The notes under the pieces: generated by a model
Told to the model about the DNA's origin: nothing
The model's input: only the letters and a program-made list of their open reading frames with translations
The model's database searches: none
Shown: in pieces, positions 19,364 to 37,442 of the stretch
Numbering within the stretch: the first letter of the stretch is position 1
Layout: the number at the start of each line of letters is the position of its first letter
Program-made: the position numbers and the translations under genes
Source of the DNA: Polynucleobacter sp. AP-Jannik-300A-C4
Lineage (GTDB): Bacteria; Pseudomonadota; Gammaproteobacteria; Burkholderiales; Burkholderiaceae
Assembly: GCF_018688335.1 (NCBI RefSeq)
Contig: NZ_CP061316.1
Location: 992,001-1,056,000 of the forward strand
Length of the DNA stretch: 64,000 bases
Direction of reading: 5' to 3'

Positions 19364-19801
19364 TCAGACTTGCTTTTTATGGCCTGTAAAGAAGCGATTG
19401 CATATCCACATACCAGCAAGCATTGCTAATATAAAGACAAAAGCCTTGAGATGACCTGCTCCGAGGGCAACAATTGCTGGACCTGGGCAGAAGCCTGCAA
19501 TACCCCACCCTGCTCCAAAAATTAGACTACCAATCACAAGTGGCTTAGAGACATCTCTTCTAGTGGGAATATGGAGAGCGCCACCGAAAAAAGCCTCAGT
19601 ACGCTTGGAGACTAAATAAAAGCCACCCAAACCAACAAGAATTGCCCCACCCATCACAAACATCAGGGATGGATCCCAGTTACCAGCAAGATCCAGAAAA
19701 TTGAGAATCTTTTGAGGATTGCTCATACCGGAAATGATTAAACCAATTCCGAATAAAACACCGATCAAATACTGGCTATAAAAATTGAAATGTCTTCTCA
19801 T
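19364..19801 (-). CDS. YeeE/YedE family half-transporter (PmpB-like)
   Basis: The 145-residue membrane protein has four hydrophobic segments and the conserved cysteine motif GFCPGP (C105), matching the DUF6691 class of YeeE/YedE proteins. These half-size proteins pair with another half (here the gene 19805-20242, three bases upstream) to form a unit like full-length TsuA thiosulfate importers. Substrate is inferred to be thiosulfate or another small sulfur species. Confidence 0.85.
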   Translation of the reverse strand: MRRHFNFYSQYLIGVLFGIGLIISGMSNPQKILNFLDLAGNWDPSLMFVMGGAILVGLGGFYLVSKRTEAFFGGALHIPTRRDVSKPLVIGSLIFGAGWGIAGFCPGPAIVALGAGHLKAFVFILAMLAGMWICNRFFTGHKKQV

Positions 19802-19804
19802 AAT

Positions 19805-20242
19805 TTATAGGCCTAACAGATGGCGAATAACAAAAACAGTCAAAAACCCAGCACTCATAAAAGACAAAGTCGCCACTAGAGATCTTGGTGACAAGCGAGA
19901 TAAGCCGCAAACACCATGGCCACTAGTACATCCCGAGCCATAACTAGAACCAAAACCGACTAATAAGCCAGCAATAATGATTGCAATCCAATCTGCATCT
20001 ATCACTGTAATTGTGTGAAGATCAAAAAATAAACTCCCCAAAAATGGTGCGCTCAATAAGCCTAAAACAAGGCTCAGGCGCCAAATAACATCACCATTTT
20101 TAGGGGTGAGTAATCCGGAAACGATGCCACTAATGCCCAGAATACGACCGTGCAGAATTACATACAAAGCAGCTGCAACTCCCAATAGGATTCCACCTAA
20201 AAAAGCGGGTACAGGGGAAAAAGCCAACCAATCTATCTGCAT
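19805..20242 (-). CDS. YeeE/YedE family half-transporter (PmpA-like)
   Basis: The 145-residue membrane protein carries GSGCTSGHGVCGLSRLSPRS (C105, C112), the sulfur-transporter signature, between hydrophobic helices. It partners the GFCPGP half-protein encoded three bases downstream. Together the pair resembles PmpA/PmpB of the BigR-type operons. It follows the full-length YeeE gene by 22 bases, so it is probably in the same transcript. Confidence 0.86.
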   Translation of the reverse strand: MQIDWLAFSPVPAFLGGILLGVAAALYVILHGRILGISGIVSGLLTPKNGDVIWRLSLVLGLLSAPFLGSLFFDLHTITVIDADWIAIIIAGLLVGFGSSYGSGCTSGHGVCGLSRLSPRSLVATLSFMSAGFLTVFVIRHLLGL

Positions 20243-20264
20243 ATTATTTAATCTAACCTAAGAG

Positions 20265-21386
20265 TTAACTACAAGGATTGGGTGCATTACGCGACTCCAA
20301 ATAACGCAGGGCTAAGTAAGCGCCAAAGATAAAACCTGGTAAAGCAAGTATTGAGCCTAAGGCTAATGTAGAGATGCCACTCAAGCCCTGACCAACAGTG
20401 CAACCGAGCGCTGTTACACCACCGAATCCCATCAAAGTCGCACCAACGAGATGATTCGCGGTATCTTCAGTATCACGAAAGCTCTCCCAACGAAATGACT
20501 TAGTAATGAGGGACACGCAAGCAGACCCAGAAATCATTCCAGCAACGGCAGCAATACCTAAAGTAATGATTTTTGAGGTATCGCTATAAAGCATTAACCA
20601 ATCCAATGAAAAGGCGTAAGGCGCAACAAATGAAAGACTCTCCATGCGTCCAGAGTTGGTCACCAAAAAAACCTCTTCCAAGGTATTGGGATCTTCAGCA
20701 ACAAATCCTAAGTTTCCAGAAATGAACCAGATTGCGCAAATAGCAAGGCCAACAAAGATTCCAGAAAACAGATTTTCTGCAGTCCAAAAGGCCTTATTTG
20801 CAAGAGCATATGCAATGAAAGCAAAGCCAATAATCAAACCCAGGGCAAGATGTAAGTTGCCCCTAGCAATGCCAATAATGGGGCTCAAAATACTTGGCAA
20901 ATCTTGAGGTGTATTTAGGGTGATAAACACCGAGTCCAAGGTATTGATGCGAATAACACCAAGAAAGCCCCTCATGGTCATGTAGGCAGTTAAACCAAGA
21001 ACAATAAACACAATGATGGACTTAAGATTGCCACCGCCAATGCGAACCAGAGTCTTACTTCCGCAACCTGATGCAAGCACCATGCCGAATCCAAATAGCG
21101 TACTACCTACGATGGTTGAGAGCCATAGAAGCTTACTGCTGGTATAGATGCTCTTAAGTGGATCAATAAGGCCTAGGTAGGACATGAAGGCAAATCCAAC
21201 AATCGCTACGCCAATGGCCAGAAACCATTGCTTTAGACGACCCCAGCTAGACATAATATAAATATCTGAAACTGCACCCATGCTGCAAAAACCAGTTTTT
21301 TGCATTACGGCGCCAAGCAAAAAAGTAATGGCAAAGGTCGACCATAGAACTACCTTGCTGATACTGCTGATATCTACTGCTTCCAT
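20265..21386 (-). CDS. Full-length YeeE/YedE thiosulfate-transporter-like protein (TsuA type)
   Basis: The 373-residue inner-membrane protein has about nine to ten hydrophobic segments and an internal two-fold pattern with cysteines in GFCSMG (C34), SGCGSK (C108), GSACVS (C290) and LGCTVGQGLSG (C329). In TsuA a cysteine relay passes thiosulfate through the pore. Its place in the sox series fits uptake of thiosulfate for assimilation or of sulfane sulfur. It is 16 bases downstream of the small cytochrome c gene. Confidence 0.88.
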   Translation of the reverse strand: MEAVDISSISKVVLWSTFAITFLLGAVMQKTGFCSMGAVSDIYIMSSWGRLKQWFLAIGVAIVGFAFMSYLGLIDPLKSIYTSSKLLWLSTIVGSTLFGFGMVLASGCGSKTLVRIGGGNLKSIIVFIVLGLTAYMTMRGFLGVIRINTLDSVFITLNTPQDLPSILSPIIGIARGNLHLALGLIIGFAFIAYALANKAFWTAENLFSGIFVGLAICAIWFISGNLGFVAEDPNTLEEVFLVTNSGRMESLSFVAPYAFSLDWLMLYSDTSKIITLGIAAVAGMISGSACVSLITKSFRWESFRDTEDTANHLVGATLMGFGGVTALGCTVGQGLSGISTLALGSILALPGFIFGAYLALRYLESRNAPNPCS

Positions 21387-23217: not shown

Positions 23218-24951
23218 TTATTTAAGGGCAACCATGCCAGGATTGTTTGTAACGCCTTTAATGATTGGTTCATTAAGCTGGACTGCTTTGACCACCTTGA
23301 CATCACGAAGATGGCGCTCAATAACGTCCCAAATCGCCTCTCCACCAGCATTCTTCGCCTCTTCGCTCACAGGAGCCCAGCCGGCAACTTTATAAGTCTT
23401 GCTTGGATCGATGTCCTTGCCATTGAGACGCATATCGCTAATGCGCTTGCCGGCAGATGCAGCTGGATCAATGGTGTATTGCATGCCGCCGACACGAACC
23501 ATATCACCACCCTGCTGATAATACGGATCAGGATTAAAGAGGTTATCCGCTACATCCTCAAGAATCGTCTTGATCATTTCACCGGTCATGTTCGTAACCG
23601 TGGTGTATGGATAAGTAATAGCCGTTTGATCCAATAAGTTTTCACGGGTAATTGCTTGACCTGGCAGCAAGCTAGTTCCCCAACGGAAACCTGGTGAGAA
23701 TGCAATCTCCGCATTCTTCTGAGCCATGAGACCATCCAAGATCAGTTGGTCAAAGCTACCATTAAAGTTTCCACGGCGATACAAGAGACCTTCTGTTGTA
23801 GCCAATTTTTCGTTGAGCTTAGCTTCATACGGCGCTCTAATTTTTTGAATCAGCTTATTCATTGCAGGATCAGCTGGGATCATGTTGGAGAAGATTGGGA
23901 AGAGTTTGTACCGGAAATCAACCGCTTTGCCGCCCTTCACATCAAAGTCCAATACGCCTAAGAATTTAGTATTCGAGCCAGCATTGGTAACTAAAGTTAC
24001 GCCACCAGAATTCTTAACCTTGACTGGAATTGGAACGCCATCGTGAGTATGGCCACCCATAATCGCATCCAAACCAGTGACGCGGGATGCCATTTTTAAG
24101 TCAACGTCCATACCGTTATGAGAGAGCAACACAACTACTTTTGCACCCTTAGCCTTGACCTCATTAATTGTCTTCTGCAGATTTTCTTCTTGGATACCAA
24201 ACGTCCAATCTGGGGTGAAGTAACGTGGGTTAGCAATTGGGGTGTACGGAAAGGCTTGGCCAATCACCGCTACCTGAATGCCATTCTGCACCTTCATGAC
24301 GTAAGGATTAAATACTGAATCTCCGAAGTCTGCAGTCTTAATATTTTGGGCTACAAAGGACACCTTGCCTTTGAAGTCGCCATTCACAATTTCCATAACG
24401 CGCTTCTCACCAAGAGTCATCTCCCAGTGTGGAGTCATGACGTCAACGCCTAAGAGGAGCGCTGCATCAACCATGTCCTGACCGTTAGTCCATAGAGAAG
24501 TGCCTGAGCCTTGCCAAGTATCACCACCATCTAACAAGAGTGCCCCTGGGCGACTTGCCTTGATTTGCTTGATAAGGGTTGCCATGTGAGCAAAGCCACC
24601 AACCTTGCCATAGTTTTGAGCTGCCGCTACGTAATCAAGATATGTGAATGCATGTGCATCACGTGTTCCTGGCTTAATACCATTCGCCTTTAAAAAATAT
24701 TCGCCGACCAAATGAGGTGTTTTGCCTTCTTGAGCGCCAATACCAAGGTTGACATTAGGCTCACGGAAATAGATTGGCAGAAGTTGTGCGTGGCAGTCAG
24801 TGAAGTGCAGGAAATGCACATTACCAAACTTCGGCAAATCATAGAATTTTTGCGCAGTAGTTTGCGCGCTTGCAAAATTAGATTGCAAACTCATGCCGCC
24901 CGCTGAGGCGATGGCTAATGCTTGCAAAAATTCACGACGATTTAAAGACAT
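23218..24951 (-). CDS. soxB: Thiosulfohydrolase SoxB
   Basis: SoxB is the periplasmic dimanganese enzyme that removes sulfate from SoxY-cysteine-S-sulfonate. The 577-residue protein has a Tat signal (NRREFLQALAIA), and the metallophosphatase-like motifs FTDCHAQL (51-57), GGDTWQGSG (142-150), PHWEMTLGE, SHNG (277-280) and GGHTHD (299-304). Length matches SoxB. It follows soxX after 46 bases that include a GAAA-loop hairpin, which may change its expression relative to soxX. Confidence 0.96.
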   Translation of the reverse strand: MSLNRREFLQALAIASAGGMSLQSNFASAQTTAQKFYDLPKFGNVHFLHFTDCHAQLLPIYFREPNVNLGIGAQEGKTPHLVGEYFLKANGIKPGTRDAHAFTYLDYVAAAQNYGKVGGFAHMATLIKQIKASRPGALLLDGGDTWQGSGTSLWTNGQDMVDAALLLGVDVMTPHWEMTLGEKRVMEIVNGDFKGKVSFVAQNIKTADFGDSVFNPYVMKVQNGIQVAVIGQAFPYTPIANPRYFTPDWTFGIQEENLQKTINEVKAKGAKVVVLLSHNGMDVDLKMASRVTGLDAIMGGHTHDGVPIPVKVKNSGGVTLVTNAGSNTKFLGVLDFDVKGGKAVDFRYKLFPIFSNMIPADPAMNKLIQKIRAPYEAKLNEKLATTEGLLYRRGNFNGSFDQLILDGLMAQKNAEIAFSPGFRWGTSLLPGQAITRENLLDQTAITYPYTTVTNMTGEMIKTILEDVADNLFNPDPYYQQGGDMVRVGGMQYTIDPAASAGKRISDMRLNGKDIDPSKTYKVAGWAPVSEEAKNAGGEAIWDVIERHLRDVKVVKAVQLNEPIIKGVTNNPGMVALK

Positions 24952-24967
24952 AGTATTTTCCTAAAGA

Positions 24968-24989
24968 AAACAGGCCTTTCGGCCTGTTT
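24968..24989 (-). terminator. GAAA-tetraloop hairpin between soxX and soxB
   Basis: Read on the transcribed strand, a perfect 9-bp stem (AAACAGGCC / GGCCTGTTT) closes a GAAA loop and is followed by TTCTTT. It lies inside the 46-base gap after the soxX stop. It could be a partial terminator or a stabilising RNA hairpin. The T-run is interrupted, so read-through into soxB is likely. Confidence 0.6.
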
Positions 24990-24997
24990 ATTTTTTA

Positions 24998-25603
24998 TTA
25001 CTTGTTAACAGGCGACTCTGGATCTAGGAGCAATGCCATGACATCCTGCATTTGCTTCTCATTTAAGAGCTTGAAGTGCCCGAAACGAGGCATATTGCTA
25101 CATACGTTATAGGCCTTGGAATTATTAATACGATTCCAAGTGTAGGTAACAATCTCCTGCGTGTAACCCCTTAACTTTCCATAATTCCATAAAGAGGGGC
25201 CAATGTTTCCATAAGAGACTTCTTTGATATTGATTTGATGACAGTTATAGCAACCACCACCATTTGCCGATCCAGCTTTATCAGACCAGGTAGCGCCTCG
25301 ACCACTTTGAGCAATTTTTTCACCGCTCTTCCAGTCGCCAATGTATTTACCATCGGATGGCTGCTTGATCATAGCCATGTTTTCGTTTTGAATCTTTTCG
25401 CGAACCTTGGGATCTCCACCGCCATCGAGATTTACAGGGTTCGAACAAAACTTTTGCGCTGCATCTTGATCCAAACGATCTAAACCAGCCTGCCCCTTAG
25501 CTTGAAAGCTGCTAGACATCATTTTTTCGAAAGGAGTAGCAGCGCTCGCAGCACCAGCTACAGCTAAAAGCGTAAACGCCAAAATTGATAATTTGATTTT
25601 CAT
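24998..25603 (-). CDS. soxX: Sulfur-oxidation cytochrome SoxX
   Basis: SoxX with SoxA forms the periplasmic c-type cytochrome that couples thiosulfate to SoxYZ. The 201-residue protein has a signal peptide (cleavage after ASA, residue 21), one heme site CYNCH (118-122), and the segment GNIGPSLWNYGKLRG with the distal Met in NMPRFG (M171). Length fits the larger SoxX forms. It follows soxA by 18 bases. Confidence 0.93.
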   Translation of the reverse strand: MKIKLSILAFTLLAVAGAASAATPFEKMMSSSFQAKGQAGLDRLDQDAAQKFCSNPVNLDGGGDPKVREKIQNENMAMIKQPSDGKYIGDWKSGEKIAQSGRGATWSDKAGSANGGGCYNCHQINIKEVSYGNIGPSLWNYGKLRGYTQEIVTYTWNRINNSKAYNVCSNMPRFGHFKLLNEKQMQDVMALLLDPESPVNK

Positions 25604-25621
25604 ATTATTTATCTCCAGCGA

Positions 25622-26464
25622 TTAACGCTTCAGTCCTGGTGCATTCATAGTTCCGCCCTTAGCAGTCACAGCCATATACATGGAGACTGCAATAGTATCT
25701 TCAGAAATGTAGATAGGCTCTGGGAAGCGTTGTTGACGATAGCAATCGTTTAAGCGACGTTGCATGGTCCAGAAAGTACCGCTAGATACACGGTATGCAG
25801 GCCAGTAACCCCAACCTAAAGCAGCCCCCTTCTCAACAGTTAAATTAGGCAGGTCCTGTAAGCGGATTCGCTTGCCATTAGACGCGTGGCATGATGCACA
25901 GGAGAAATCCATTGGGCCACCTTGGTAAAAGAATGATTCTTTACCCAGTTGGTAAGCCAGCTTTTCCTTAGGATGCTTTGCAACGACATTAATCGGCATA
26001 CCCTTAGATTCAGCCACTACATAAGCAACTACAGCCTCAAGATCTTTACGCTTGCCTTTGCTAAAGCCGGCCTTAATGATCTCATTTGCGTCGTATCCCT
26101 GCAGCTTGCTCATACAGGTTACAAGACGAGACTCTAGATCTTGAACTTGATTAGTATCTTTAAAATACTTTGGTAACTGCGTATAAGCCCCTTTAACTAC
26201 GCCAGGACCCATACCCAAATCACATTTTTGTAAAGAGACATTCTTAGGCCCCATGGGCTTTTTCCAAATGTCTTCACCAGCAGCTTCATATAAATCAGCA
26301 GGGTTACCATCGGCAATCATTGCACGATATTTTTCAATCTCATCAGTTGGAGCCCCTCCAGTAGGAGTGGCGGCTGTAGAAGCCTCATTTTTTGCAGAAC
26401 TAGAACAGCCCTGCAATACCGCAAACAAGCCAATAATAACGCCATATAAAATGCGTGTTTTCAT
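25622..26464 (-). CDS. soxA: Sulfur-oxidation cytochrome SoxA (single-heme, lipobox at N-terminus)
   Basis: SoxA forms the disulfide-like bond between thiosulfate and SoxY. The 280-residue protein has one CxxCH heme site (C189-H193). The position of the N-terminal heme in two-heme forms is taken by C81 and C117, expected to be a disulfide. C241 in NDCYRQQRFPEP is the active cysteine that becomes the persulfide heme ligand. The N-terminus reads LFAVLQGCSSSA, a lipoprotein-type signal with C20, unlike the usual soluble SoxA; glutamine at -2 makes it a weaker lipobox. It follows soxZ by 37 bases. Confidence 0.93.
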   Translation of the reverse strand: MKTRILYGVIIGLFAVLQGCSSSAKNEASTAATPTGGAPTDEIEKYRAMIADGNPADLYEAAGEDIWKKPMGPKNVSLQKCDLGMGPGVVKGAYTQLPKYFKDTNQVQDLESRLVTCMSKLQGYDANEIIKAGFSKGKRKDLEAVVAYVVAESKGMPINVVAKHPKEKLAYQLGKESFFYQGGPMDFSCASCHASNGKRIRLQDLPNLTVEKGAALGWGYWPAYRVSSGTFWTMQRRLNDCYRQQRFPEPIYISEDTIAVSMYMAVTAKGGTMNAPGLKR

Positions 26465-26501
26465 GGTAACCCTTTTATAGTTTTAATTATGCGTACTAAT
26501 A

Positions 26502-26810
26502 TTAAGAAGCCGTAGCTTCATCAGTACGTTTGTCGCCTTTGCTATCGTTCCAAGTCACAACAATCTTGTCGCCCTTAGCACCCTTGTACTTAAAGTTCAA
26601 GAATGGATCTTTGGATACTGCTGGGCCAAATTGACCATTAAATACATCTTTGCCATTGGCTTTGACATTGATAGTGCTGATAAACCATGCTGGAATAGTT
26701 TTGCCAGAAGCGTCTTTACGCTGACCAGATTCCATATCATGCTTCATCAAAATTTTTACATCTACAGTACCGCCATTTTCAGCAGCTCTTACGCGCATTG
26801 GATCAGCCAT
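26502..26810 (-). CDS. soxZ: Thiosulfate-carrier subunit SoxZ
   Basis: The 102-residue protein is the immunoglobulin-like partner of SoxY, with KILMKHDMESGQRKD, IPAWFISTINV and the C-terminal TWNDSKGDKRTDEA segment. It has no signal peptide and is presumably exported with SoxY through Tat, as known for SoxYZ. It follows soxY by 54 bases. Confidence 0.95.
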   Translation of the reverse strand: MADPMRVRAAENGGTVDVKILMKHDMESGQRKDASGKTIPAWFISTINVKANGKDVFNGQFGPAVSKDPFLNFKYKGAKGDKIVVTWNDSKGDKRTDEATAS

Positions 26811-26864
26811 TTTGGTTCCTCTTTTATTCTATGTATGAATTGTGTTTATTAATATGCTTCGGAA

Positions 26865-27317
26865 TTAACCGCCGCAACCACCAAGCGTTACTTTGACTTC
26901 TTTAACAGTCATTAGCCACTTGCCATCAGCTTTTACCAAGCCGTATACATTGGATGTTTGACCCATTTTGATACGTGTTGTCACAAATGAATCTGTGCCA
27001 GCAGGAATAAAGAATTGAGCTGCTAGTGAGCTTGGGTTCTTTTCAACCAAGATAGCCATTTGCTCTGCCTTAAGCGTAGAAGTGATTCCAACAGGAACAA
27101 CTGCACCGTTTTCAGCGATATCTGGGGCATTCAAAGTCACTGCAGATGATTTATCTGGACTATCAGCACCCAAGATCTTGAATACATCATCGATACCTTT
27201 GCCTTCAAAAGCGGCTTTGTTCCACTCTTGAGCTTGAGCAGTGCTGATAAGGCCTGCAGAAGCCATTAGGCCAAATACTGCTGAATACTTCATCAAACTG
27301 CGTCGCTGCTGATTCAT
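26865..27317 (-). CDS. soxY: Thiosulfate-carrier subunit SoxY
   Basis: SoxY carries sulfur intermediates on its C-terminal cysteine. The 150-residue protein has a Tat signal (NQQRRSLMKY) and ends in LGGCGG with the carrier cysteine at residue 148, the swinging arm. Length matches the family. An 85-base gap to soxD upstream is one of the larger gaps in the sox series, so an internal promoter is possible; I see no clear one. Confidence 0.96.
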   Translation of the reverse strand: MNQQRRSLMKYSAVFGLMASAGLISTAQAQEWNKAAFEGKGIDDVFKILGADSPDKSSAVTLNAPDIAENGAVVPVGITSTLKAEQMAILVEKNPSSLAAQFFIPAGTDSFVTTRIKMGQTSNVYGLVKADGKWLMTVKEVKVTLGGCGG

Positions 27318-27402
27318 AAAAACTCCTTTATTAATCTTAACTTCTGTTAATTTATTGCTTATTTTGCATTAAAACATTGAGGTTACTACCTAATTGGCTA
27401 TT

Positions 27403-28482
27403 TTATTTGCCACCAGAGAGTATCCACGTCACTAAAGTCTTGCGATCCTCATCAGAAAGCTGGGCCTGTGGCGGCATTGGAATGGAGCCCCATACACCCG
27501 CCCCGCCGGCCTTAACCTTTGCCATGAGTTTATCGACCGCACCACTCTGCCCATCGTATTTCTTGGCAATATCGGCTATTGATGGGCCAACCAACTTCGC
27601 ATTAGGCGCATGACAGGCTGAGCAGTTCTCATTTTTAAAGAGTGCTGCTGGTCCTTTTGCTGCAGAAGAATGGGTATCTGCTGCATGAGCCAAGCCCTGA
27701 CCAGAAGCTCCAGGCAATTGCTTAATTGGAGGCTTGGTTGTATCCACGCCTCTATAAGGGCCATACATGCGGTTTTGCTCGGCAATATTGTTGTGGGCAT
27801 TACGAGCAAAATCAGGCAATGTTGAGCCAATTTGAACAAATGGAACGCAGTTATGCATGCAAGAACTTCCATTGACATCCGGCTTGTCTTTAACATTCCA
27901 GAAACCATGTTTGGTCGTCATACCATTTCGGTTTGGCATTTTGACCTCAGCAATATTTTTATCGCTCAACACAAAATCATCAGGAACAATTTCACCAAGA
28001 CTGAGAATGAAAGCAACAACCGCATAGGTATCGTCAGGCGTTAAAGATCTTGGGGCATTCCACGGCATTGCACGGTAAATGTAGTCCCACAATGTAGATA
28101 CCGTTGGCACCTTCATTAAGGTTGTTCTTTGCGGCTGCTTCATATCTTTTAATGAGGCAACCTTACCTGTCTTCACATCATCCTTGGTGGTGCCACCAGC
28201 GATAGGTGTAAAGATTTCATTTGACTCACCGAAGGTGCCATGACAACTTGCGCATTTAGCCTCCCAAATGGCTTGACCTTTTTCAACAGAGCCAGATCCT
28301 TTTGGGAGACCCTTGAAATCTGGACGAACATCAATATCCCAAGCCGCTACTTCAGCCATCGTTGCATGACGACCAATACCTGGATATTTAGCAGAATCCG
28401 ATTGTGCAACCGCACTGTGAGCACTTAAAACTAAAAGCGCTGCAAAACCAATACGAGCAGTTAATTTATCCAACTTGTACAT
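27403..28482 (-). CDS. soxD: Sulfane dehydrogenase cytochrome subunit SoxD
   Basis: SoxD is the cytochrome c partner of SoxC in the sulfane dehydrogenase that oxidises the SoxY-bound sulfane to sulfone. Counted from the frame start at 28497 it has heme sites CASCH (82-86) and CSACH (292-296), so it is diheme, with an extra pair C213/C217. A signal peptide ends near AVAQ. I chose the ATG at 28482 because a GAGG ribosome site precedes it; the ATG at 28497 is the alternative. Either start overlaps the soxC end. Confidence 0.92.
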   Translation of the reverse strand: MYKLDKLTARIGFAALLVLSAHSAVAQSDSAKYPGIGRHATMAEVAAWDIDVRPDFKGLPKGSGSVEKGQAIWEAKCASCHGTFGESNEIFTPIAGGTTKDDVKTGKVASLKDMKQPQRTTLMKVPTVSTLWDYIYRAMPWNAPRSLTPDDTYAVVAFILSLGEIVPDDFVLSDKNIAEVKMPNRNGMTTKHGFWNVKDKPDVNGSSCMHNCVPFVQIGSTLPDFARNAHNNIAEQNRMYGPYRGVDTTKPPIKQLPGASGQGLAHAADTHSSAAKGPAALFKNENCSACHAPNAKLVGPSIADIAKKYDGQSGAVDKLMAKVKAGGAGVWGSIPMPPQAQLSDEDRKTLVTWILSGGK

Positions 28483-29866
28483 TGCTGACCTCGCCATTTG
28501 AATCTAATTTCCAGGATTGAATTGCATTGTTGTGATAGATCGATCTTGTACCGCGCACATCACGCAATTTTTTAATGGTTGGCTGAATATAGCCTGTATC
28601 GTCCATCGCTCTCGACTGCAAAATGGCAGGTGAGCCATCCCACACCCAGTCAATATTAAAGCGGGTAATAGACTTATCTAGGATTGGTGTTTCTAGACGA
28701 GCAGTGCGCCAGTTATTTCCACCATCGAATGAAACATCAACACGCCGGATCTTGCCGCGACCAGACCAAGCCATACCGCTGACGTTGTAGAAACCTTTAT
28801 CCAGCAACTGCTGACCACCAGATGGTGTTGTGATGACCGATTTACATTCTTGAATCGATGCATATTGACGGTGCGATCCATCCGGCATCAATTCAATATA
28901 GTGAACTGCCTCATCCTTCGCATTCCATGGCATATCACCTACTTCAAGGCGACGCAACCATTTCACCCAACTTACTCCTTGAACACCAGGAACCACTAAA
29001 CGTAATGGAAAACCATTTTCAGGGCGTAACATCTCACCGTTCATCGCCCAAGCCACGATAGTGTCGTTTAAACAGCTTTCCAAGTTAATCGTGCGAGTCA
29101 TGCCAGAACCATCACCACCTTCAGCAAGCATGAACTTGCCTTTTTTGAGGTCAGCGCCACATTCTTCAAGCAATACTTTTAAAGGAACGCCAGTGAACTC
29201 ACAGCAAGAAAGCATGCCGTGCGTGTACTGAACAGTAGGTACGGCAACATTACCCCACTCAAGACCAGTATTAGCACCACACTCAATAAAGTGCGTACGA
29301 GATACCGAAGGCATTCTCATCAAATCATTCATTGTGAAAACGCGTGGGTTTTTCACTAAGCCATTCACCATCAGGCGATGAGTCTCAGGATTGAGGTTGT
29401 ACCAACCTTGATGGTGACGCTCAAAATGCAATCCGTTAGGAGTGATTGTTCCAAACAAACCTTGAAGCGGAGTAAAGGCAACTGAGGCTGCTGATACTCG
29501 AGTTAAGCCTGGAGACTCTCGACGAATCAAGTTTGACTCGTAAATAGATGGCATACCGTAAGGCATAGTTGCTACATTCTTACCAAGGGTAGTTTGCCAT
29601 TCCTGCTTCTCCAGAATCGCAGGATCGCCCTCACCAGCAGCCATTGCTAGCGGAGCTGTTAGCCCTGCCGCCGCGCCACCTAGAGCAGACATGAAACCCT
29701 TGCGCAAGAAGCCGCGACGGTTTTCATCCAAGCCATTGGCGTTGATGTCAGCAATCAGTTCCTGAGAAATAAAATGCTCAGGAGCCTTAACCAGACGAGC
29801 ACGGTTAGCCGGCTTTTCGATAGCGCTGATATCTTGCGCACTGATCTCTATTTGTTTTTTGGTCAT
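28466..29866 (-). CDS. soxC: Sulfane dehydrogenase molybdenum subunit SoxC
   Basis: SoxC is a sulfite-oxidase-family molybdoenzyme. The 466-residue protein has a long N-terminus before a Tat motif NRRGFLRKGF (49-58), the molybdopterin-ligating cysteine in FIECGANTGLEW (C196), WVKWLRR and a C-terminal dimerisation domain. The presence of SoxCD implies complete oxidation of thiosulfate to sulfate without sulfur globules. The divergent modBC genes could supply molybdate for it. It follows soxR by 37 bases. Confidence 0.95.
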   Translation of the reverse strand: MTKKQIEISAQDISAIEKPANRARLVKAPEHFISQELIADINANGLDENRRGFLRKGFMSALGGAAAGLTAPLAMAAGEGDPAILEKQEWQTTLGKNVATMPYGMPSIYESNLIRRESPGLTRVSAASVAFTPLQGLFGTITPNGLHFERHHQGWYNLNPETHRLMVNGLVKNPRVFTMNDLMRMPSVSRTHFIECGANTGLEWGNVAVPTVQYTHGMLSCCEFTGVPLKVLLEECGADLKKGKFMLAEGGDGSGMTRTINLESCLNDTIVAWAMNGEMLRPENGFPLRLVVPGVQGVSWVKWLRRLEVGDMPWNAKDEAVHYIELMPDGSHRQYASIQECKSVITTPSGGQQLLDKGFYNVSGMAWSGRGKIRRVDVSFDGGNNWRTARLETPILDKSITRFNIDWVWDGSPAILQSRAMDDTGYIQPTIKKLRDVRGTRSIYHNNAIQSWKLDSNGEVSNVQVG

Positions 29867-32176: not shown

Positions 32177-32392
32177 TTACTTACCGGAACTGCTATCGCT
32201 ACATGAATCTTTAGCACCAGTATTAATACCCAATAATGGATAGGCCGGGCAAAATTTAAACACTCCAGTGGCTAGTGGAATAACACCAATCCAAGCCCAG
32301 GCTCCAGTTGTTCCTGTGACAGCCAAGCCAATCAATACTAGGCCAGCAACAATACGTAAGATACGGTCGATACCACCAACATTGCATTTCAT
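32177..32392 (-). CDS. DUF2892 small membrane protein (YgaP-like)
   Basis: The 71-residue protein matches the DUF2892 membrane domain, with MKCNVGGIDRILRIVAG, two hydrophobic segments and KFCPAYPLLGINT; in YgaP this domain is fused to a rhodanese. Cysteines are C3, C48 and C64. As the last gene after the sulfurtransferase it may anchor sulfur-transfer proteins to the membrane, an inference from the YgaP fusion. Confidence 0.85.
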   Translation of the reverse strand: MKCNVGGIDRILRIVAGLVLIGLAVTGTTGAWAWIGVIPLATGVFKFCPAYPLLGINTGAKDSCSDSSSGK

Positions 32393-32440: not shown

Positions 32441-33418
32441 TTAATTAAGCGGAACACCAACCAGTGGACGACCTTCTAGAGTCCAGAGATACAAAGAGCC
32501 GTCATAAAGCTTGGTTGATTTATTGCCAACTAATTCAGACATAACAAACCAACCACCAGCCGCCAAGTGACCACTATTGCAATAGCTAATTGCCGGTGTC
32601 TTCGGGTTGATACCGTTTGAAGTGAATAATGCGTTGTAAGTATTCTTATCCCAGAAATACAGAGCCCCTTTTGCAGGCTTTGCTAATAACTCAGGAGCCA
32701 ATTCCTTTGCACCCGCAATGTGACCGTAAGCACCTACATAGTCACGCTTATTTAAACCAAAAAACTGAACAGGTTGACGTGCGTCGATCAAAGTAGATTT
32801 ACCAGTTCTAGAAGCTAATGCTACCTGCTCTGAGTTAGCAATCAACTCTTTGCGCTCAGCTTTGCCAACCCATGTTCCATTAGTTTTAATCGATGGGGCA
32901 ACAGAAAAATCGCGTCCTTCAGAAAGCCAGCCCGCCATGCCACCATCTAATACGGCGATATTGTCCTCACCGTAAACCTTAAATTGCCAATACGCACGCA
33001 AAGCTTCATCAATATCGGAAATATCTTGGGCAATTGGAACTAAAACAATTGGCTTGTCAGAATTGATGCCCACTGACTGAATAATTTTTTCAAAGTCAGC
33101 CTTTTCAGGAATCAGATACTTGATCTTTTTCCCGTCAATCATGCGATCAACCCTGACCTTTTTAAAGTCAAGCAATGTGGAATCCGGAATATGGCCACCT
33201 ACCTCAACTAAAAACTTCTTCCCTGTTTTTTTATCAATTTCGAATTCAGGGGCACGGGTATAGCTGGCTACATCGCCACGAACCTCTAAGATCTGAACCT
33301 CTGATTGATTAGCAGCAAGCCACTCTGCGCTGACTAATGGACCCGGCAAACTTACCGCGTTCACTAATCCAATAAAACTTGTAATAGCAACAGCTAGTCC
33401 TATTCGAATTTTTTTCAT
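32441..33418 (-). CDS. Secreted two-domain sulfurtransferase (rhodanese)
   Basis: The 325-residue protein has a signal peptide (residues 1-22) and two rhodanese domains. The first (about 28-172) lacks the usual cysteine loop, reading VLVPIAQDISD; the second (about 190-322) has the active-site loop YCNSGHLA with C280. Such proteins move sulfane sulfur between thiosulfate or thiols and acceptors. It lies 13 bases after the DUF6969-like gene in the second sulfur unit. The substrate is not known. Confidence 0.86.
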   Translation of the reverse strand: MKKIRIGLAVAITSFIGLVNAVSLPGPLVSAEWLAANQSEVQILEVRGDVASYTRAPEFEIDKKTGKKFLVEVGGHIPDSTLLDFKKVRVDRMIDGKKIKYLIPEKADFEKIIQSVGINSDKPIVLVPIAQDISDIDEALRAYWQFKVYGEDNIAVLDGGMAGWLSEGRDFSVAPSIKTNGTWVGKAERKELIANSEQVALASRTGKSTLIDARQPVQFFGLNKRDYVGAYGHIAGAKELAPELLAKPAKGALYFWDKNTYNALFTSNGINPKTPAISYCNSGHLAAGGWFVMSELVGNKSTKLYDGSLYLWTLEGRPLVGVPLN

Positions 33419-33431
33419 TTGAACTCCTTGA

Positions 33432-34055
33432 TTAATTTACAGGTAATAAATATTGTGAAAGTCGATCTAATAAATCAATCTTGCTTTCAGTTAATACGTG
33501 GTACTTCCTTGAATTGAGAGCGGACATCAGGTCACCACAGTCAATTTCTAGCTGAGTAATTTTGCGATCCCGTTCAACTATTAATACTTTCATGTCGGTA
33601 AAAAATAGTTTAGTAAGCGCACTAACCCAGCGGGATACTGGACCCAAGCGACCCTTAGTTGCCATATCAAAGTTGCGCAATTCATCAATCACCAGATCCG
33701 CAGAGATTAACTTCTCCCCCGTAACCCACTGATTTGTAGTAAATAAACGAACTGGCAAGCCTTGCTGATTTAATGCGATACCAATGAGGTGATGGAATTC
33801 CGCTTCATTGCGCTTGAATAAATGGAAGTGACCATGCTCACCATCTTGCATCTCATCGGCTGTATGTGCATGGTAGTAAAACTCATAGCCACTCTCGGGA
33901 TCTGAGAGATCATTTTTGGGATAGTGACTCCACTCAATAAACTCTCGTGCGCCACACAGTGCTGCTTCGCTTAGGGTCAAGCCCTTTTTTGCGTAGCGCG
34001 TTTGGATGCTAGCAATTTCTTGAGCAGCTAAACAGAGAGTAGATTGAATTAGCAC
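33432..34055 (-). CDS. Conserved His-rich protein, DUF6969-like, unknown function
   Basis: The 207-residue protein has no clear signal peptide. A His-rich core at residues 44-89 holds SHYP, YYHAH (H62, H64), EHGHFHLF (H74, H76, H78) and FHH (H88, H89), which looks like a metal site. The pattern resembles DUF6969 proteins; that label is from memory and unverified. It lies nine bases after the NPCGP-repeat gene and 13 before the sulfurtransferase gene, so the three are almost surely co-transcribed. No function is known; metal binding is inferred from the histidines. Confidence 0.75.
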   Translation of the reverse strand: MLIQSTLCLAAQEIASIQTRYAKKGLTLSEAALCGAREFIEWSHYPKNDLSDPESGYEFYYHAHTADEMQDGEHGHFHLFKRNEAEFHHLIGIALNQQGLPVRLFTTNQWVTGEKLISADLVIDELRNFDMATKGRLGPVSRWVSALTKLFFTDMKVLIVERDRKITQLEIDCGDLMSALNSRKYHVLTESKIDLLDRLSQYLLPVN

Positions 34056-34064
34056 GATTTAAGA

Positions 34065-34298
34065 TTAATCAGCAGATTTACGTTTTTTTGGACCACAAGG
34101 ATTTGATGGGCCACAAGGGTTGGCTGCTTTTTTCTTAGCCGGGCCACACGGATTCCCTGACTCCTTTTTAGGTCCACATGGGTTCTTTTGTTCGGCACCA
34201 GCTGGAGTTGCTGGAGCATCTGCTGCATTAGCCATAGGGGCCGCTGCCAATCCAGCTAAAGCTAAAGCAAGCGCAGCTACTGTTGATTTTTTAGACAT
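34065..34298 (-). CDS. Small secreted NPCGP-repeat protein
   Basis: The 77-residue protein has a clear signal peptide (cleavage after ANA, residue 25). The mature part of about 52 residues is Pro/Ala/Lys-rich with four NPCGP repeats (39-43, 49-53, 60-64, 66-70), giving single cysteines C41, C51, C62 and C68 and no other. It looks like a flexible multi-thiol or metal-buffering peptide, or a precursor for modification. It sits between the yeeE pair (20 bases) and the His-rich gene (9 bases). I know of no firm function; a periplasmic sulfur or metal carrier is a hypothesis. Confidence 0.8.
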   Translation of the reverse strand: MSKKSTVAALALALAGLAAAPMANAADAPATPAGAEQKNPCGPKKESGNPCGPAKKKAANPCGPSNPCGPKKRKSAD

Positions 34299-34318: not shown

Positions 34319-34888
34319 TTAGATTTCTTGAGAACTAACAGGGCCTGTGGATTTCTTCTCCATCCATGCGCCCAAAATAAATACACCAATTGCAGCAAGC
34401 ACCATGATGAGGTCTATGGCAATGCTTGAAACGTTAAATAGTTCTGGCAATGAATCTGCATTTGCAAGTTCACCTAAAGTCGTAAGAGATTCAATGCTTG
34501 GATAGATGCCTGCAAATAGGATGGTTCCCAGCAACAAACCAATTAAAAAGATTCCTGCATCAATCCGACCTGACATCAGACCAACTACTGATGTTCCAGG
34601 GCAATAGCCGCCGATAGCAAAACCGGCACCGACAAATGCACCGCCTAAAGCTGCCGCACCTAAGAATGATGGTGGAACAAAAAGGCTTCCGCTCTCTACA
34701 AATCCAGTCCTTTCTAGAATGAAGAGTCCGACTGCAGCAAACACGATTGCAGTAAACATCACTTTAAATACGGACCAATCTGTTAAGCGAAATTGACCCG
34801 TTAATTTATTGGGATTACCAAAACCAGCCCGCTCAAGCACAAAGCCGAAGGCACCACCAATCAATAAACCCGAAAGAATTGTTCCCAT
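34319..34888 (-). CDS. YeeE/YedE family half-transporter
   Basis: The 189-residue membrane protein has about five hydrophobic segments and GYCPGTSVVGLMSGR with the conserved cysteine C96. It starts one base after the end of the other half-transporter gene and completes the pair. The unit likely imports or exports thiosulfate or sulfane sulfur. Confidence 0.85.
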   Translation of the reverse strand: MGTILSGLLIGGAFGFVLERAGFGNPNKLTGQFRLTDWSVFKVMFTAIVFAAVGLFILERTGFVESGSLFVPPSFLGAAALGGAFVGAGFAIGGYCPGTSVVGLMSGRIDAGIFLIGLLLGTILFAGIYPSIESLTTLGELANADSLPELFNVSSIAIDLIMVLAAIGVFILGAWMEKKSTGPVSSQEI

Positions 34889-34889
34889 C

Positions 34890-35414
34890 TTATTTCTCCT
34901 CTTTCATTAGGCGGCTGGCAAGCAATCCAACCGCGAAGAATGTACCTAAAAATGTAAATCCAGCCAAACTCAGAACAGCCGCGCCAGATAAACCGAGACC
35001 ACTGGTACAACCCGCAGCAATGCGAGCACCAAAGCCAGCTAAGATTCCACCAAATAATGCGGTTAAGGGTCGCTTGGAGCCCCCTAAGAATTTTTGGCCA
35101 TCCAGCTTAATTGCAATTCTTCCAGCAAAAAATGCTGAAATGAGAGCGCCTAGAGCAACACCAATCACCTGCCATGTGATCCATGCATCCAAGGGCTTGC
35201 CCTCTTCAACCATTCCACCAAGATATTCATTGGCATTAGTAGCCGCTGGTAGTAGGTACATTCCAAACCATGCTGTTAGGCGGGTTGTAAATCCTGTAGC
35301 ACCCAAGCCATGACCGGTAAAAGCAAATGTAGATAACAGAACAATCCCGAGCAGGATGCCCGCAAGCAAAGGATTCCAATACGGAGCTGGTTGACCCTGT
35401 TTTTCGTTTTTCAT
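34890..35414 (-). CDS. YeeE/YedE family half-transporter
   Basis: The roughly 174-residue membrane protein has about four hydrophobic segments and AAGCTSGLGLSGAAVLS, the first-half sulfur-transporter signature. The frame reaches a TTG at 35429, but the ATG at 35414 is the better start. An AT-rich imperfect palindrome lies 20 bases upstream and a strong terminator separates it from the rhodanese gene, so this gene starts its own transcript. Confidence 0.85.
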   Translation of the reverse strand: MKNEKQGQPAPYWNPLLAGILLGIVLLSTFAFTGHGLGATGFTTRLTAWFGMYLLPAATNANEYLGGMVEEGKPLDAWITWQVIGVALGALISAFFAGRIAIKLDGQKFLGGSKRPLTALFGGILAGFGARIAAGCTSGLGLSGAAVLSLAGFTFLGTFFAVGLLASRLMKEEK

Positions 35415-35433
35415 TTCTGATCGCCTCAATTAC

Positions 35434-36357: not shown

Positions 36358-36666
36358 ATGAAAAATAGTCGCCGTCAATTTATGATTTTGTCTGCAGCTG
36401 GTGCTTGTACATTGGCTTTGAACGGTAAAGTTCAAGCTCAAGCAATGGTTGCCGAAACTGATCCACAAGCTGCTGCTTTAGGCTACAAGGCTGATGCCTC
36501 TAAAGTGGATAAAGCAAAATATCCAAAGTATGCTGCTGGCCAAAAGTGTGACAGCTGCGCCCTGTATCAAGGTAAACCTGGTTCTGCTGCTGGTGGTTGC
36601 TCTTTGTTTGGTGCTAAGCAAGTAGCAGGTGCAGGCTGGTGCTCTGCTTACGCTAAAAAGGCTTAA
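36358..36666 (+). CDS. High-potential iron-sulfur protein (HiPIP)
   Basis: HiPIPs are small periplasmic [4Fe-4S] electron carriers. The 102-residue precursor has a Tat-type signal (NSRRQFMILSAAG) and four cluster cysteines C64, C67, C81 and C95 with the family pattern GQKCDSCALYQG...GGCSLFG...GWCSAY. It could take electrons from Sox or other periplasmic dehydrogenases and pass them to an oxidase. It is monocistronic, ending in a clear terminator. Confidence 0.93.
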   Translation: MKNSRRQFMILSAAGACTLALNGKVQAQAMVAETDPQAAALGYKADASKVDKAKYPKYAAGQKCDSCALYQGKPGSAAGGCSLFGAKQVAGAGWCSAYAKKA

Positions 36667-36725: not shown

Positions 36726-37442
36726 TTACATACTTGCCTGTGAGAACGCTTTTAGCTTCTCAAGACTAGGTATTTGAATGCTAAGACGAGTGACATTTGA
36801 AATAATCCCTTGATCAGCCATAGATGCAAGCGCCCTACTGATAGTCTCAAATTTCACATCCATCATTAAACCCATATCTTCCCTCTTAAATAATGGGGCG
36901 ACTGCCATATCACCAGAAACTTTAGCGGTCCTGAGGAAGAAGCGCGCAAGACGTACTTCAATCCTACCCGTATTAATTTCAGAAAACCAAGATTCCGATT
37001 GGGCAAGTGCTTCTCCCCACTTCTTAACAATCTGACGATGCAAGCGTGGTGACTCTTCGCCCAAAGAAGAGATGATTTTTTTAGGGATACGGCAGAGATG
37101 GATATTGGATAGCGCGGCTGCTGAATGGGCATAACTGTCACCTAAGAGCGCCTCCATACCAAATAGATCTCCAGGAACTACTAAGCGGACAATTCTTCCA
37201 GATCCATCTGAATTAATATGAAGTAACTTGATATACCCATCCCTCAAGGTATAGAGGAAATCAGCAGCTTCGCCCTGGTTGTAAATTCCCGAATGCGCCT
37301 CAAATCGAAGGTCATCAATTGGCTCATGTATTTTGGAAAAATCATCTTCATTTAATTCAGCAAAGAGTGCAGAGCTTCTGATAGAGCAAGCATTACAGTC
37401 GCTGTTGCCTTGCCAAGCACTTTTGATCTCGATGGTTTTCAT
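36726..37442 (-). CDS. Crp/Fnr-family transcription regulator
   Basis: The 238-residue protein has a cNMP-binding-like beta roll (about 25-150) and a C-terminal winged helix with FKREDMGLMMDVKFETISRAL. N-terminal cysteines C16 and C19 (DCNACSIR) are fewer than the three that ligate the Fnr cluster, so oxygen sensing by a classical [4Fe-4S] cluster is not assured. Its ATG overlaps the methyltransferase stop. Targets are unknown; the neighbouring HiPIP or respiratory genes are possible. Confidence 0.87.
   Translation of the reverse strand: MKTIEIKSAWQGNSDCNACSIRSSALFAELNEDDFSKIHEPIDDLRFEAHSGIYNQGEAADFLYTLRDGYIKLLHINSDGSGRIVRLVVPGDLFGMEALLGDSYAHSAAALSNIHLCRIPKKIISSLGEESPRLHRQIVKKWGEALAQSESWFSEINTGRIEVRLARFFLRTAKVSGDMAVAPLFKREDMGLMMDVKFETISRALASMADQGIISNVTRLSIQIPSLEKLKAFSQASM

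Follow-up and report, generated by a model that had tools for sequence, protein, structure and literature searches.

The window analysed here, a 64,000-nt stretch from the 2.0 Mb single-contig genome of Polynucleobacter sp. AP-Jannik-300A-C4, contains a tight run of six genes on the minus strand, with gaps of 1, 20, 9, 13 and 48 nt in the order listed:

34890..35429, minus strand: second YeeE/YedE half-transporter (PF04143, E 8.4e-19), 1 nt before the first half
34319..34888, minus strand: YeeE/YedE half-transporter (PF04143), 20 nt before the peptide gene
34065..34298, minus strand: 77-aa peptide with a signal-peptide-like N-terminus and four NPCGP motifs; proposed substrate or carrier
33432..34055, minus strand: 207-aa DUF6969 protein with a GTG start (PF22308, E 1.9e-51); proposed cytoplasmic metal-dependent partner
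32441..33418, minus strand: double rhodanese with a signal-like N-terminus (PF00581, two stretches), 13 nt after the DUF6969 gene
32177..32392, minus strand: YgaP-like transmembrane protein (PF11127, E 1.1e-23), 48 nt after the rhodanese gene

The sizes of the gaps are as expected for one operon, which the YgaP-like gene probably closes. Both YeeE halves pass the PF04143 cut-off at half length (47.7 and 68.7 bits against 27), and the rhodanese has a cysteine within an SYCNSG loop. An initial annotation of this DNA had placed the peptide and the 207-aa protein 9 nt apart, between YeeE halves and a secreted sulfurtransferase; both open reading frames and their spacing are confirmed, and Pfam identifies the neighbours as described.

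Other genes of note lie in the window. A sox-like cluster (23218-29866, minus strand), in which SoxB, X, A, Z, Y, D and C were recognised by eye and SoxY is backed by a PF13501 match in the genome (G000:C1:1018874-1019176), has a second YeeE-like set at its other end (19364-21386, minus strand). This set comprises, by eye, two 145-aa halves and one 373-aa protein, and one of its halves was matched at 34% identity in the search for YeeE orthologues. A gene for a high-potential iron-sulfur protein with a Tat-like leader (PF01355) is found at 36358-36666 on the plus strand, and a gene for a Crp/Fnr-type regulator adjoins it at 36726-37442.

The cysteines of the peptide (C41, C51, C62 and C68) all lie in NPCGP motifs, which start at residues 39, 49, 60 and 66. 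The initial annotation had described these repeats as evenly built; the four motifs and their cysteines are present, but the description is loose, the motif starts being 10, 11 and 6 residues apart. No Pfam family matches the peptide at E 0.1, and its export was judged by eye from the N-terminus. In 31 rows of Polynucleobacter-type peptides, some of them from the same genomes, the four Cys columns are kept save for missing repeats (one row each, in two columns), and both TGT and TGC are in use as Cys codons. The median dN/dS is 0.05, computable for 251 of 465 pairs and with dS saturated. Going by the sequences, the peptide is under strong purifying selection, and the NPCGP repeats are more than chance.

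The 207-aa protein belongs to DUF6969 (PF22308), a named Pfam family of unknown function that the initial annotation had missed; it scores 175 bits (gathering cut-off 27), with residues 10-193 aligned to positions 3-201 of the 201-position model. Its histidines are at positions 44, 62, 64, 74, 76, 78, 88, 89 and 186, and the initial annotation had noted seven of them as packed into the core. In an alignment of 45 divergent DUF6969s (22-76% identity to the window protein, most rows 22-37%), H62, H64, E73, G75, H76, H78, F80, H89, N108 and V111 are invariant, a near-invariant Arg-Asp pair is present, and H74, W110 and R162 vary once each. The one sequence without H74 (kept in 44/45) comes from L120, a locus where no peptide was seen. 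The His cluster, on whose conservation the initial annotation had likewise staked its case, is conserved, except for H88, which occurs in only 6 of the 45 sequences.

Structure prediction gave confident models for the window protein and the distant L114 protein (pLDDT 94.9 and 94.1), with a similar order of elements in both. Three consecutive predicted strands (57-63, 75-83 and 86-95) have H62/H64, H76/H78 and H89 along their length or at their end, at alternate residues, and from this arrangement we infer a probable metal site that these histidines share on one face. Neither model gave a fold match among solved structures, and no known enzyme fold or family was matched. At E 0.1, the window protein matched DUF6969 only, and not the MNIO family PF05114. 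The MNIO fold is a barrel, and the predicted order of strands and helices in DUF6969 differs from that of an alternating barrel. We consider DUF6969 to be probably a cytoplasmic, metal-dependent protein, and probably an enzyme. The terms DUF6969, PF22308 and NPCGP gave no relevant paper in the literature searched, outside which most subscription journals lie, and searches joining cysteine-rich repeats with sulfur oxidation, or bufferin/MNIO with sulfur and rhodanese, gave nothing on the pair in the excerpts of the matches listed.

We compared 61 related genomes, of which 37 belong to the genus (the window's own included). The peptide, DUF6969, the orthologue of the rhodanese (at least 61% identity over at least 315 of 325 residues) and the orthologue of the YeeE half (at least 69% identity) are found in the same 12 of the 37 genus genomes and are missing from the remaining 25, save that G022, a genome in 480 contigs, has part of a rhodanese at the edge of a contig; a short match at a contig edge in G047 was left out of the count. 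The peptide is present in 12 of all 61 genomes, and weaker rhodanese and YeeE homologues in most of them. For the pair of peptide and DUF6969 the Fisher p is 5e-10, in a set of related genomes that are not independent of each other. In G004 the YeeE and rhodanese genes do not flank the pair but are found some 2 kb upstream of the peptide gene. SoxY was found in all 37 genus genomes, so the cassette, present in 12, is not needed for having Sox, and a dependence of Sox on it was rejected. The idea of a sulfane-sulfur buffer for the sox pathway, which the initial annotation held to be the simplest, is supported only in so far as sulfur genes accompany the pair: 17 of the 46 distant loci have rhodanese, YeeE or both. 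A buffer serving Sox is possible but not specifically supported.

DUF6969 is found in 30 of 369 genomes of the class and in 20 of 398 of the phylum, two sets that overlap in part. We examined 59 DUF6969 loci, 13 from the genus and 46 distant ones, with both loci of G766 counted. A Cys-repeat peptide lies within 2.5 kb of DUF6969, mostly just upstream, in 53 of these loci across Pseudomonadota; the initial annotation had staked its case beforehand on such adjacency. The count includes 43 peptides that pass a strict rule (a 45-residue span with at least four Cys, the same dipeptide next to at least three of the Cys, and a hydrophobic N-terminal stretch) and ten that were added by eye, a less objective share (L067, which is cut by a contig end, L068, L075, L076, L079, L081, L085, L087, L088 and L126). 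The strict rule was passed in 13 of 13 genus loci and in 30 of 46 distant loci (in 253 kb), and gave a single match in the other 416 kb of the distant loci, outside the 2.5-kb zones. No Cys-repeat peptide was seen within the searched 2.5 kb in L069, L070, L089, L110 and L120, nor in a sixth locus, L117, which begins 174 nt from a contig end.

The 53 peptides comprise 47 of Pro-Cys type and six with other Cys repeats (L073, L074, L122-L124 and L125). Among the 47 PC-type open reading frames, 44 are on the strand of DUF6969 and 36 end close upstream of it. In L112, L113 and L115, from three genomes of one genus, the peptide is on the opposite strand, about 1.2-1.4 kb off. The distance from peptide to DUF6969 in Polynucleobacter-type loci, some of which are from the same genomes, is -4 to 14 nt in 20 of 21 and 39 nt in L058. 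A relative of one distant DUF6969 was matched in 168 plasmid records (105 from Sinorhizobium, 47 from Burkholderia and 13 from Azospirillum). Peptide and DUF6969 are found together at 1280764-1281848 of pSymA in Sinorhizobium meliloti 1021, and again in S. meliloti 2011, both of them laboratory strains open to genetics; the single Azospirillum lipoferum locus that was read showed no Cys-repeat ORF. A phage origin was also considered and set aside, as no phage record matched one distant DUF6969. In S. meliloti R11 the DUF6969 gene was matched in two pieces (L133, 6001-6568), and in one piece in strain 1021, which may reflect either decay or a sequencing error.

A protein search with an NPCAA-type peptide matched 14 of the 369 class genomes, 8 with DUF6969 and 6 without (Fisher p 1.6e-6). 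Two of the latter, G121 and G253, have clear NPC-repeat/SoxA-type proteins and no DUF6969 match listed in the class-genome search, which argues that the partner is not always needed; as FGE, DUF302 and YeeE lie near this protein in G121, other partners may serve there. The remaining matches without DUF6969 are a short NPC tail on another protein (G136), an NPCLSQ repeat whose nature is unclear (G069), and two that look like chance (G395 and G414). The observation holds up, and it reaches further than the initial annotation saw.

The peptide motifs vary among loci (NPCGP, NPCAAK, SPCGL, CGAK) and are mostly of the form Pro-Cys-small. In the 47 PC-type reading frames, counted from stop to stop and hence including a few unrelated cysteines, Pro precedes 331 of 433 Cys, and Ala, Gly or Ser follows 362. 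Peptides that pass the rule have a charged-hydrophobic, signal- or anchor-like N-terminus, and those of L122, L123 and L125 are, by eye, lipoprotein-like. One group combines a leader that has IDHTRHxLP, or a near variant, with a subsequent tail of SPCGL, SPCSL or related motifs; in the peptides of S. meliloti and Ciceribacter the anchor is followed by a comparable DHHNH or DHASH. The peptides of L079 and L081 have two SPC motifs each, in an acidic tail, and some others contain metallothionein-like stretches (CGCCGCC, CCAAEG). Five long repeat reading frames were scanned with Pfam: a SoxA/TsdA cytochrome c domain (PF21342) is joined to NPC repeats in four (L063, L116, L118 and L119), and the fifth (L111) has a sub-threshold cytochrome P460 match only. 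By similarity only, L143 and L155 also show SoxA/TsdA-type cytochrome c domains fused to arms of NPC repeats, and in L155 an FGE-like gene stands beside the fusion, with DUF6969 not found there.

The neighbours of the pair were counted in the 46 distant loci, for each of which 3.6 to 16.6 kb of DNA was covered. Rhodanese was found in 15, YeeE in 13 and both in 11, which leaves 29 with neither within the DNA covered; in some of these, ECF sigma, DUF302, FGE, thioredoxin or MNIO genes take their place. ECF sigma factors were found in 5, FGE in 4, DUF3179 in 4, MNIO and DUF2063 in 3, thioredoxin in 2, DUF302 in 2 and DsbD in 1; a count for SoxA (14) was left out, because bare repeats are matched by that query too. 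In the DUF6969 tree, whose root is arbitrary and several of whose branches are long, rhodanese is present on either side of the deepest split with good support. The gene order in Ciceribacter thiooxidans is rhodanese-YeeE-peptide-DUF6969, and in Skermanella we find DUF6969, an NPCAAK peptide, DUF302, a sigma factor and NrsF in a row. Two S. meliloti plasmid records with listed genes name no sulfur gene within 6 and 8 kb, in gene tables that are incomplete. The links to rhodanese, YeeE and SoxA/TsdA cytochromes favour a role in sulfane sulfur, and those to sigma factor, NrsF, DUF302 and MNIO keep a role in copper open.

Two further arrangements were seen. In L112, L113 and L115 a secreted-looking protein with an FGE-sulfatase domain (PF03781 in L113, similarity in L112 and L115) is encoded between DUF6969 and the opposite-strand NPCAA peptide. 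The DUF6969 loci L065, L118 and L124 also have MNIO and DUF2063 genes (by Pfam in L124, by similarity in L065 and L118), so that two candidate Cys-modifying systems are present within 10 kb.

SoxYZ is an exported carrier with its thiol on a flexible arm, which in SoxY is a C-terminal arm of the GGCGG type. The peptide resembles it as a proposed exported carrier with adjoining sulfur genes, but it has several cysteines, exists separately from SoxY, matches no Pfam family at E 0.1, the SoxY domain PF13501 included, and ends not in a GGCGG-type sequence but in NPCGPKKRKSAD. The YeeE halves belong to the same Pfam family as the YeeE-like sulfur transporters PmpA/PmpB and SoxT and are split, a likeness that concerns only the neighbours of the pair; the study of these transporters found nothing to indicate that PmpAB takes part in sulfur oxidation in Hyphomicrobium denitrificans (PMC11582611). 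Bacterial metallothioneins and other low-complexity Cys peptides share the Cys-dense repeats of some members, but differ in the absence of a signal-like N-terminus and of a DUF6969 partner, and some of our peptides have only 2-4 Cys. FGE acts on substrates with the motif CxPxR; this motif was not found in the window peptide, whose four sites read CGPKK, CGPAK, CGPSN and CGPKK, and a role as FGE substrate was rejected. Closest in layout are the bufferins and other MNIO-modified RiPPs. According to the bufferin report, bufferins are Cys-bearing precursors with Sec signals that serve as MNIO substrates, and a sigma factor and NrsF belong to the set of bufferin cluster genes (PMC12452194). Our pair likewise has a small Cys precursor with a Sec-like signal (by eye), encoded directly before an enzyme-like cytoplasmic protein, with short Cys-motif repeats in some members and sigma factor and NrsF nearby in some loci. 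It differs in that DUF6969 has no detectable relation to MNIO and in its rhodanese and YeeE neighbours, and the window peptide has neither a DUF2282 match (Pfam, E 0.1) nor an EGKCG motif.

As the layout, an exported Cys precursor followed by a protein that lacks a signal and has an invariant metal-type site, is bufferin-like, yet the partner shows no relation to MNIO, we propose by analogy that DUF6969 may act in a metal-dependent manner on the PC motifs. As the best explanation, held with moderate confidence, we suggest that peptide and DUF6969 form one functional pair in which DUF6969 acts on the cysteines and the peptide then becomes an exported thiol carrier. The peptide would be made with a Sec-like signal and, while still in the cytoplasm, would meet DUF6969, a soluble protein whose fold seems to be new and whose invariant cluster (HxH, E-H-G-H-F-H and a further H) may hold a metal. 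DUF6969 would then act on the Pro-Cys-small cysteines, by chemical modification or by loading with sulfur or metal, and the finished peptide would be exported and would work in the periplasm as a flexible carrier with many thiols. Here, and in the other branches with rhodanese and YeeE, the cargo would most likely be sulfane sulfur, which the peptide would exchange with the secreted rhodanese and either hand over to the YeeE transporter or receive from it. The two possibilities raised in the initial annotation, namely a Cys precursor with a metal-dependent modifying enzyme or a carrier with its loader, both fit the evidence.

That the two genes are merely operon neighbours with separate functions is very improbable. 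The peptides on the other strand in L112, L113 and L115 would suit such a view, but the pairing persists in the window's class, in other genomes of the phylum and in the named alphaproteobacteria while other neighbours change. DUF6969 could also be a chaperone for an unfolded Cys peptide, or a sensor of metal or sulfur, with the peptide as an unmodified thiol carrier. The failure of DUF6969 to match any known enzyme fold or family and the peptides without DUF6969 in G121 and G253 are consistent with this, but five invariant and one near-invariant His, an invariant Glu and Asn and the near-invariant Arg-Asp pair seem to exceed what a chaperone needs, and we think such a role improbable.

A more serious contender, although still rather unlikely in our judgment, is a copper buffer. 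DUF6969 would here equip the peptide with Cu-chelating groups, or just assist, and the peptide, once exported, would bind surplus copper or some other soft metal in the periplasm in the manner of bufferins; sulfur genes would be present as copper and sulfane sulfur meet in that compartment. The MNIO, DUF2063 and ECF sigma genes of some distant loci and the metallothionein-like peptides point this way, as does the Skermanella row, whose sigma factor and NrsF are both in the bufferin cluster set (PMC12452194). However, the ten window proteins scanned included no recognisable copper transporter or sensor, the L079 and L081 peptides, with only two Cys, would make poor metal buffers, and the recurrent rhodanese and YeeE are left unexplained. 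We favor the reading in which DUF6969 acts on the cysteines of an exported thiol carrier.

The pair points to an enzyme, so far undescribed, that would ready cysteine peptides for a role outside the cytoplasm. More tentatively, we propose that DUF6969 may define a new class of fold, made up of metal-dependent enzymes that modify cysteines, and that the Pro-Cys-small peptides may be a large, undescribed family of Sec-exported, modified peptides. These would carry sulfane sulfur (or soft metals) in the periplasm of many Pseudomonadota, the model symbiont S. meliloti 1021 among them. DUF6969 hereby gains a testable role and a candidate substrate, and the fusions of NPC repeats with SoxA/TsdA cytochrome c are a domain arrangement of interest in its own right. 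If our proposal is true, cysteine-modifying chemistry on exported peptides would have evolved repeatedly, by means of metalloenzymes that are not related to one another, and sulfur traffic in the periplasm would have a many-thiol carrier besides SoxYZ.
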